NCBI RefSeq assembly: GCF_005377625.1
Contig: NZ_CP040098.1
Coordinates: forward strand, 868,001 to 932,000
Direction of reading: 5' to 3'
Source: Desulfoglaeba alkanexedens ALDC
Lineage (GTDB): Bacteria > Desulfobacterota > Syntrophobacteria > Syntrophobacterales > DSM-9756
Length of the DNA: 64,000 nucleotides
The position numbers were made by a program, and so were the translations under genes. Numbering within the stretch: position 1 is the first letter of the stretch; every line of letters begins with the position of its first letter. This document shows, piece after piece, positions 21,383 through 23,474 of the stretch. The notes beneath the pieces were generated by a model that worked only from the letters and a program-made list of their open reading frames with translations, was not told the origin of the DNA and did no database searches.

Positions 21383-21410
21383 TTGATCTTTCCATGACCG
21401 CTTTTATAAT
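21383..21410 (+). promoter_or_regulatory. Predicted sigma-70 promoter of the leu leader transcript
   Basis: TTGATC (21383-21388), a 16-base spacer and a perfect TATAAT (21405-21410). Transcription would begin near 21417 and read through the 43-codon frame, the leucine leader peptide, the attenuator and leuA. It is the only strong promoter-like match I see upstream of leuA. Confidence 0.65.
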
Positions 21411-21471: not shown

Positions 21472-21603
21472 ATGGACGCCGTCCGGACCATGGAAGAAGC
21501 CAACAGGATCATCGAGGATTTCCCGCCGCACAAGTACGCGATCTACATCTTCCTGTTTCTGCTTGAAATCGTGACCGTGTTCTGTATCGGCCTGACCATC
21601 TGA
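21472..21603 (+). CDS. Small single-pass membrane peptide, unknown function
   Basis: A 43-codon frame starting at ATG 21472 with GGAGG five bases upstream. The product has a charged N-terminal half (MDAVRTMEEANRIIEDFPPH) and a C-terminal hydrophobic helix (YAIYIFLFLLEIVTVFCIGL) that would span the membrane once. It lies between the predicted promoter and the leucine leader peptide, so it may be made from the same transcript. I do not recognise a family. It is not a leader peptide for leucine: leucine codons are few and scattered. A longer in-frame start at 21253 would run into the cca gene and has no ribosome site that I can see. Confidence 0.5.
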   Translation: MDAVRTMEEANRIIEDFPPHKYAIYIFLFLLEIVTVFCIGLTI

Positions 21604-21648
21604 GAGACCACCGCCTGGACCTTCGTGGTTGAACGCCCAAGGAAGTCG

Positions 21649-21750
21649 ATGATGACGGGAACCCTGACCAACCTGGCTCTGCTCCTTCTTTTGCTGTGCC
21701 TTCGGGCCCAGGTTTGGGAACCCGGCGTCTTCCTCTTGCGGTCGCCATAA
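21649..21750 (+). CDS. leuL: Leucine leader peptide
   Basis: A 33-codon frame (ATG 21649 or 21652, stop TAA 21748-21750) with AAGGAAG upstream. It encodes MMTGTLTNLALLLLLLCLR and continues for 14 more residues. Nine of the first 18 codons are Leu, including six in a row at 21679-21696. It is followed by a rho-independent terminator (21776-21810) and then leuA. This is the arrangement of classical amino-acid attenuators: stalling at Leu codons under leucine starvation changes folding of the RNA downstream. Confidence 0.85.
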   Translation: MMTGTLTNLALLLLLLCLRAQVWEPGVFLLRSP

Positions 21751-21810
21751 GCCATCGCGACGCAAAGCAAAAGACAAGGCCATGGGTTCCCGCCCATGGC
21801 CTTTTCTTTT
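21716..21810 (+). terminator. Leucine attenuator: terminator with competing antiterminator pairing
   Basis: The terminator stem is AAGGCCATGGG (21776-21786) with CCCATGGCCTT (21793-21803), a six-base loop and TTTTCTTTT through 21810. An upstream segment GGGAACCC (21716-21723), inside the leader frame, is exactly complementary to GGGTTCCC (21784-21791), which spans the 5' arm and loop of the terminator. A ribosome stalled on the Leu run leaves this segment free to block the terminator; one that reaches the stop at 21750 covers it. A third hairpin (21736-21745 with 21757-21765) lies between. Confidence 0.75.
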
Positions 21811-21962
21811 GACTGGACTCCGAAACGAAATCTTCGGCATGGAAGGAGGTGAAGGACATGGGACTTGCTGGCCCAGCGGATTCATCTGACCCGCCCGAAC
21901 CGCCTCTGGCGAAACGGGACCATCGTATCGAGGATTCCAACACGAAACGAAAGGAAGGTATC

Positions 21963-23474
21963 ATGAGCCGAAAAATTCACATTTTCGACACCACGCTGCG
22001 GGACGGCGAACAGGTTCCCGGAGCGAAACTCAACCGGCGCCAGAAGCTGGAAATCGCCGAACAGCTGGCCAAGCTGGGCGTGGACGTGATCGAGGCGGGG
22101 TTCCCTTGCTCCTCCCCGGAAGATCTGCAGGCGGTGCGTTCCGTCGCCGAACAGGTCAAGGGGCCTGTCATCGCCGGGCTGGCCCGCGCGGTGCCTCAGG
22201 ACATCGACATCGCCTGGGAAGCGGTGCAGAAGGCCGAAAGGCCTCGCATTCACGTGTTTCTCGGATCTTCCGACATTCACCTGCAGAAGAAGCTCCGCCA
22301 GGACCGCGAAAGCGCCTTGCAACGGGCCGTAGACGCGGTACGGTACGCCAAGAAATACTGCGAGGACGTGGAATATTCCACCGAAGATGCGTCCCGGAGC
22401 GACTTCGAGTACCTGTGCCGTGTGGTGGACGCCTGCATCCAGGCGGGGGCGACGGTGATCAACATCCCCGACACGGTGGGCTACGCCATTCCCGACCAGT
22501 TTGGAGAACTCATCCTCAAACTGAAGGAAACAGTGCCGGCCCTGGACCGGGTCCGATTGAGCGTCCATTGCCACAACGACCTGGGCCTGGCGGTGGCCAA
22601 CACGCTCGCGGCCGTTCGAAACGGCGCCGAACAGGTGGAATGCACCATCAACGGCGTGGGGGAACGGGCCGGGAACGCGTCGCTGGAAGAAATCGTCATG
22701 GCGATCCGGACCCGCGAGGCCTTCTTCGACGCTCACACGGACATCCGGACCACGGAGATCTACCGCACCAGCCGCATGGTGAGCCGACTCATGAACATCC
22801 CTGTGCAGCCCAACAAGGCCATCGTCGGAGCCAATGCCTTCGCGCATTCCTCCGGGATCCACCAGGACGGCATCCTCAAGGATCGGAGCACCTACGAAAT
22901 CATCCGGCCTGAAGATGTGGGCATCAAGGCGCACACGCTGGTTCTGACCGCCCGGTCCGGCCGCGCGGCCCTGAGACACCGGCTCAAGGAACTCGGCTAT
23001 GACCTGACCCCGGAACAGTTCGAACGGGTCCACCAGCGGTTCCTGAACGTCGCCGACCGCAAAAAGGAAATCAGCAGCCAGGATCTCAACAGCATCGTCG
23101 AAATCGAACTGAGCAAGGTACCTGAAACCTACACCTTCGAGAGCCTCCAGATCATGAGCGGAAGCACCATGACACCCTTGGCGTCGGTCACCTTGATGAA
23201 GGAGGGCACCGCCTTCACGGACGCCGCCACGGGAAACGGCCCCGTGAATGCGGTTTTCAATTGCATCGAACGTATCATAGGGCAGCAGGGCACCCTCAGG
23301 GACTATGACCTGAAAGCGGTCACCATGGGTAAGGACGCTCTGGGGGAAGCCATGGTCCGCGTGGAGATCGGCGGAGCCATCTATTCGGGCATCGGCACCA
23401 GTCCCGACGTGATCGAAGCCAGTGCCCGGGCCTACGTAAACGCCTTCAACCGCTTTTTCGCCAACTCCCACTGA
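21963..23474 (+). CDS. leuA: 2-isopropylmalate synthase
   Basis: First committed enzyme of leucine synthesis, condensing acetyl-CoA with 2-ketoisovalerate; 503 residues. The N-terminal TIM barrel has [17 protein letters not shown], the metal/substrate motifs [16 protein letters not shown] and [15 protein letters not shown], and the linker [11 protein letters not shown]. The C-terminal regulatory LeuA dimer domain (residues about 370-500) includes the glycine-rich [19 protein letters not shown]. The ATG at 21963, preceded by GGAAGG, matches the family start. An in-frame ATG at 21858, with a stronger GGAGG, would add 35 residues. Expression is probably controlled by the leucine attenuator upstream and by feedback inhibition through the C-terminal domain. 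Confidence 0.93.

Follow-up and report, generated by a model that had tools for sequence, protein, structure and literature searches.

A predicted ribosome-mediated leucine attenuator upstream of leuA in Desulfoglaeba alkanexedens and its relatives

In the genome of Desulfoglaeba alkanexedens ALDC, leuA is preceded by a short ORF rich in Leu codons and by a hairpin, which raises the question of whether this leader region controls the gene and by what means. The analysis was done on a 64,000-nt stretch of contig NZ_CP040098.1 (positions 868,001 to 932,000; here called the window, to which the coordinates below refer) and on related loci. The locus is very probably a ribosome-mediated transcription attenuator through which leucyl-tRNA supply controls leuA. 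The Leu-rich leader would be a short decoy gene, and the predicted RNA switch behind it would halt transcription in ample leucine. Computation established its component parts and how far they are conserved, the competing pairings, and a model of the switch.

Leader, terminator, and antiterminator in the window

For feature coordinates, see Table 1. The ORF at 21649-21750 translates as MMTGTLTNLALLLLLLCLRAQVWEPGVFLLRSP*, with Leu at codons 6, 9, 11-16, and 18. The original prediction of a 33-codon leader with nine Leu codons among the first 18, six of them consecutive, agrees with the sequence and its translation. The ORF stands as claimed, but its start is probably the second ATG (21652), from which the Shine-Dalgarno-like AAGGAAG is better spaced, and the predicted peptide is therefore probably 32 aa long. 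The whole window, read on both strands, was used as the background for the rarity of the Leu run; among 562 short ORFs of 15-80 aa, six consecutive Leu were unique to the leader, and none of the others had more than three. The conserved Leu codons are those for the downstream pathway, with leuA lying 3' of the leader. Both the ORF and its Shine-Dalgarno sequence are present, and the ORF is kept across the 36 related regions described below.

Table 1 Features of the leuA leader region in the window
Feature	Position	Strand	Basis or remark
Promoter-like TTGATC-16-TATAAT	21383..21410	+	Possible transcript start; consensus match only
Shine-Dalgarno-like AAGGAAG	21639..21645	+	6 nt before ATG 21652; GGAAG at similar spacing in relatives
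Leader peptide ORF	21649..21750	+	Stop TAA 21748-21750; probable start ATG 21652; Leu-rich counterpart in every relative examined
Segment 1, long-range protector strand at leader start	21653..21672	+	MFE fold and ribosome scan; pairs segment 2 when ribosome-free
Regulatory Leu codons (6, 9, 11-16, 18)	21664..21702	+	Uninterrupted run 21679-21696
Short conserved helix between Leu run and segment 2	21698..21713	+	21698-21701 with 21710-21713; covariation
Segment 2, GGGAACCC (21716-21723) and GUCUU (21727-21731)	21716..21731	+	Segment 3 pairing possible in all relatives tested
Segment 3, terminator 5' arm and loop, AAGGC-CAU-GGGUUCCC	21776..21791	+	Stem and pairing analyses
Segment 4, terminator 3' arm CCCATGGCCTT	21793..21803	+	Stem; 99.4% of cells paired
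T-rich tract of terminator	21804..21810	+	Sequence
leuA, 2-isopropylmalate synthase	21963..23471	+	NF002086 and TIGR00973 above cutoff; Pfam HMGL-like and LeuA_dimer

The strong terminator expected after the leader was found as a 12-bp stem (21776-21803) followed by the T-rich tail TTCTTTT, which places an intrinsic terminator between the leader and leuA. The fold of 21649-21815 has an energy of -71.6 kcal/mol (z = -4.9 versus shuffles). An exact eight-base complementarity had been claimed between GGGAACCC (21716-21723) and GGGTTCCC (21784-21791); it is there, but the antiterminator is larger than claimed: beyond a 3x3 internal loop, GUCUU (21727-21731) also pairs with AAGGC (21776-21780). As RNA, the segment 2 partner in the terminator 5' arm reads AAGGC-CAU-GGGUUCC. 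Antiterminator and terminator are mutually exclusive in pairing tests that included the relatives. A second copy of GGGAACCC is located near the leader start (21657-21664), inside the protector helix, and sequestration of segment 2 by this upstream segment is seen in the window and varies among relatives. Leader, Leu run, terminator, and exclusive antiterminator, which had all been said to be present, were thereby identified at the sequence level.

T-box-type elements regulate leu genes in Firmicutes, and a T-box or another metabolite riboswitch could be considered for the same role here. This is extremely unlikely, as no Rfam family, T-box included, reached the gathering score in the leuA region of the window or at 11 related loci, and the T-box covariance model gave no match at the locus. 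The enterobacterial leucine leader was among the Rfam covariance models that gave nothing above the gathering threshold in the same regions.

Conservation within the order

Relatives were collected via LeuA (73-90% identity), the nearest named ones being Desulfacinum, Desulfosoma, Desulforhabdus, and Desulfoferrobacter; judged by these matches, the window falls within the Syntrophobacteria of the Desulfobacterota. Within the order, 36 distinct regions upstream of leuA were long enough to be examined; L024, at a contig edge, was left out. A Leu-rich leader, a terminator, and a pairing leader segment are present in 36/36, including L013 and L021, which have interrupted Leu runs and were missed by the first filter. 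Leu is kept while synonymous codons vary. The original prediction was to fall if relatives lacked the Leu codons and the pairing segments; all 36 keep them, and the attempt at refutation failed.

Pairing of segment 2 with the terminator 5' arm is possible in all 32 regions first examined, at -16.5 to -28.5 kcal/mol, with a mean z of -2.65 against shuffled leaders; 89% of antiterminator cells are paired among the relatives. Leaders pair with their own terminators at a mean of -22.4 kcal/mol versus -20.4 kcal/mol with those of other species, and loop and leader change together in L010 (loop TT to TA, leader AA to TA) as well as in L028 and L044. The terminator has compensatory changes at three pairs, a score reached by 0/500 shuffles. 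The 4-5 bp helix directly after the Leu run, which the original prediction did not include, has 22 compensatory cells; its covariation score is above that of 500/500 shuffles and of every slid control, and a role in pausing or protection is possible. The conservation of the peptide's C-terminal stretch [RG][EG]P.[AV]F is explained at the RNA level, the same codons making up segment 2, the partner of the terminator 5' arm. The long-range protector has a mean z of -1.0 in the relatives; it is supported on average, though not in each lineage. A uniform long-range protector across the order was rejected, since several relatives do no better than shuffles.

CUA makes up 19.6% of the Leu codons in the relatives' leaders versus 1.8% in their leuA genes, an enrichment of about 11-fold; it is absent from the window's own leader. 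In the Salmonella leu leader, changing CUA to CUG made the switch less sensitive, according to work cited in PMC1183508. Rare CUA in a distant lineage offers a cross-check on whether sensitivity governs the choice of control codons.

These data bear on the reading that the hairpin merely terminates the upstream gene for a 43-aa membrane protein, with the Leu-rich ORF arising by chance. A conserved small membrane protein gene does lie directly upstream, its stop codon 45 nt before the leader. We consider this explanation very unlikely, as a Leu-rich ORF in this position and the segment-to-terminator pairing recur in 36 regions, leader and pairing also occur where the small gene was not found (L020, L025, L026, and L048), and the CUA enrichment argues against a chance ORF.

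Two neighbouring elements were observed besides the leader. The gene for the 43-aa membrane protein MDAVRTMEEANRIIEDFPPHKYAIYIFLFLLEIVTVFCIGLTI (21473-21603, + strand) immediately precedes the leader in most relatives and carries a clear coding signature at third positions; the protein had no Pfam or NCBIfam match of meaningful score. Between terminator and leuA, a conserved element (21845-21890, + strand) consists of an extended Shine-Dalgarno sequence (GGAGGTGA) and ATGGGRCTTnnTGGCCCAGYGGATTTGTCTGA, and did not occur away from leuA in the genomes searched. It is in the leuA frame in some species and out of frame in others; a conserved N-terminal extension of leuA was rejected because the element is out of the leuA frame in about half of the relatives, and as a coding uORF it has a weak third-position bias among them.

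Modelled ribosome switch and proposed mechanism

The switch was modelled by folding RNA that ended with segment 3 while a 29-nt mask stood in for the ribosome at successive leader positions; the size of the mask and the site of stalling were assumed. In this model of the window, an A site at codons 2-12 left about 10-11 antiterminator pairs and one at codon 13 left 8.8; codons 14-16 gave just 0.1-5.9 (little or partial antitermination), codons 17-19 gave 8.6-11, and codons 22-34, to the stop, gave 0. Ribosome-free RNA had 0.8 antiterminator pairs and formed the protector instead. Averages over the 36 relatives were 8.5 pairs in the stalled state, 5.4 with no ribosome (p 2e-6 against stalled, Wilcoxon), and 5.0 with the ribosome at the stop (p 1.4e-3). 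Folding under the ribosome mask gave the predicted switch: a ribosome at the early Leu codons favoured the antiterminator, and a ribosome at the stop codon, like ribosome-free RNA, led to the protector helix and the terminator. Among synonymous recodings of the leader, the leader/terminator duplex was equally strong in 167/1000 because the peptide itself dictates much of the pairing sequence, and 14/300 switched as strongly in the model.

We infer that the leader is translated, that ribosomes stall at its Leu codons, and that transcription terminates in the cell and responds to leucine. As RNA polymerase transcribes the leader, a ribosome would begin the peptide of 32 or 33 codons. When charged Leu-tRNA is scarce, it would stall on the early Leu codons and cover segment 1; the first of these (codons 6, 9, and 11) all fall inside the antiterminating zone of the model. 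Segment 2 would then be free to pair with segment 3, no terminator would form, and leuA would be transcribed. With leucine in good supply, the ribosome would run on over segment 2 and reach the stop codon, segment 2 would re-pair with upstream leader RNA, segment 3 would pair with segment 4, and transcription would end at about 21804-21810. A ribosome on the stop codon touches only the edge of segment 2, and termination would therefore rely on the re-pairing of segment 2 with segment 1. In an untranslated leader, the protector would form by default, and the terminator would win as well.

The leader could instead act on leuA translation or via Rho, as discussed for actinobacterial leuA leaders. 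The gap of about 155 nt from the terminator to the leuA ATG, with its second conserved element and strong Shine-Dalgarno (21845-21890), favours such control, and the strong conserved terminator, U tract, and mutually exclusive antiterminator speak against it; in Actinobacteria, the LEU element forms a pseudoknot between the Leu codons and the Shine-Dalgarno of leuA (PMC1262725). Control of this kind is highly improbable as the explanation of the leader, and transcription attenuation is the reading kept here.

Distribution and comparison with known systems

A covariance model (R1) was built from the order's leaders and used to search 395 genomes sampled from the phylum. It gave 16 matches with E below 1e-12, all within the order, and weak matches elsewhere; R1 also weakly matches generic GGCC terminators across the phylum, and a match outside the order was therefore accepted only once the neighbouring gene had been inspected. 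A Leu-rich leader and terminator precede leuA at roughly 14 of 92 loci in the rest of the phylum, in about nine families, and several of these loci (L234, L254, L255, and L247) share the pairing geometry; many of the 92 have no such leader. Several mechanical leader-plus-terminator matches were discounted as ends of upstream coding genes. Tentatively, and with the odds against it, these loci might belong to a phylum-wide, perhaps ancestral, Desulfobacterota family of leucine attenuators with the post-Leu-run helix and a near-invariant AAGGCC arm, which in the order forms a conserved unit with the 43-aa gene and a strong Shine-Dalgarno element adding a layer of control.

Other candidate attenuators were seen in passing. 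A second likely one in the same genome (C1:3105023-3105123; L116, L296) has a Phe/Tyr-rich leader (...SRFFMYFFYRPKSRRLTRL), a GGCC terminator, and a matching antiterminator segment ahead of a prephenate dehydratase operon; a relative (L297) has FFFFGFYFF. In another genome of the phylum (L137), a trpE-like gene is immediately preceded by tandem hairpin terminators, which may be a trp attenuator.

Leucine attenuation is known best from enterobacteria. The original remark that no described case was known from this lineage agrees with the literature searched, the surveys Vitreschak 2004 and Lopatovskaya 2010 aside; no paper found there describes a leuA attenuator from it. The proposed mechanism is of a known type, in a lineage apparently without an earlier description of it, and would extend classical leucine attenuation to sulfate-reducing and syntrophic Desulfobacterota. 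The locus is a candidate regulator of leucine synthesis in that group, and the leader alignments provide material for a new RNA family. The locus shares with the attenuator of the Escherichia coli and Salmonella leu operons (leuL) a Leu-rich leader peptide carrying Leu control codons, an antiterminator and terminator, and leuA as the first gene, but differs in its longer Leu run, the absence of an Rfam match, a window leader without CUA, a terminator 5' arm (AAGGCCAUGGGUUCC) that hardly varies within the order, an opposite-strand gene after leuA, and the 43-aa membrane protein gene upstream. Rare CUA is common to the relatives' leaders and the Salmonella leu leader (Carter et al. 1986, cited in PMC1183508). 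The Staphylococcus aureus ilv attenuator likewise sets a Leu-containing leader peptide and a terminator over branched-chain synthesis, but it precedes ilvD, has mixed Ile/Leu codons, and uses another antiterminator geometry (PMC5794164). The actinobacterial LEU element also places a Leu run in an ORF ahead of leuA; it works through a conserved pseudoknot of Leu codons and leuA Shine-Dalgarno, with no intrinsic-terminator attenuation (PMC1262725), whereas the terminator is conserved here.
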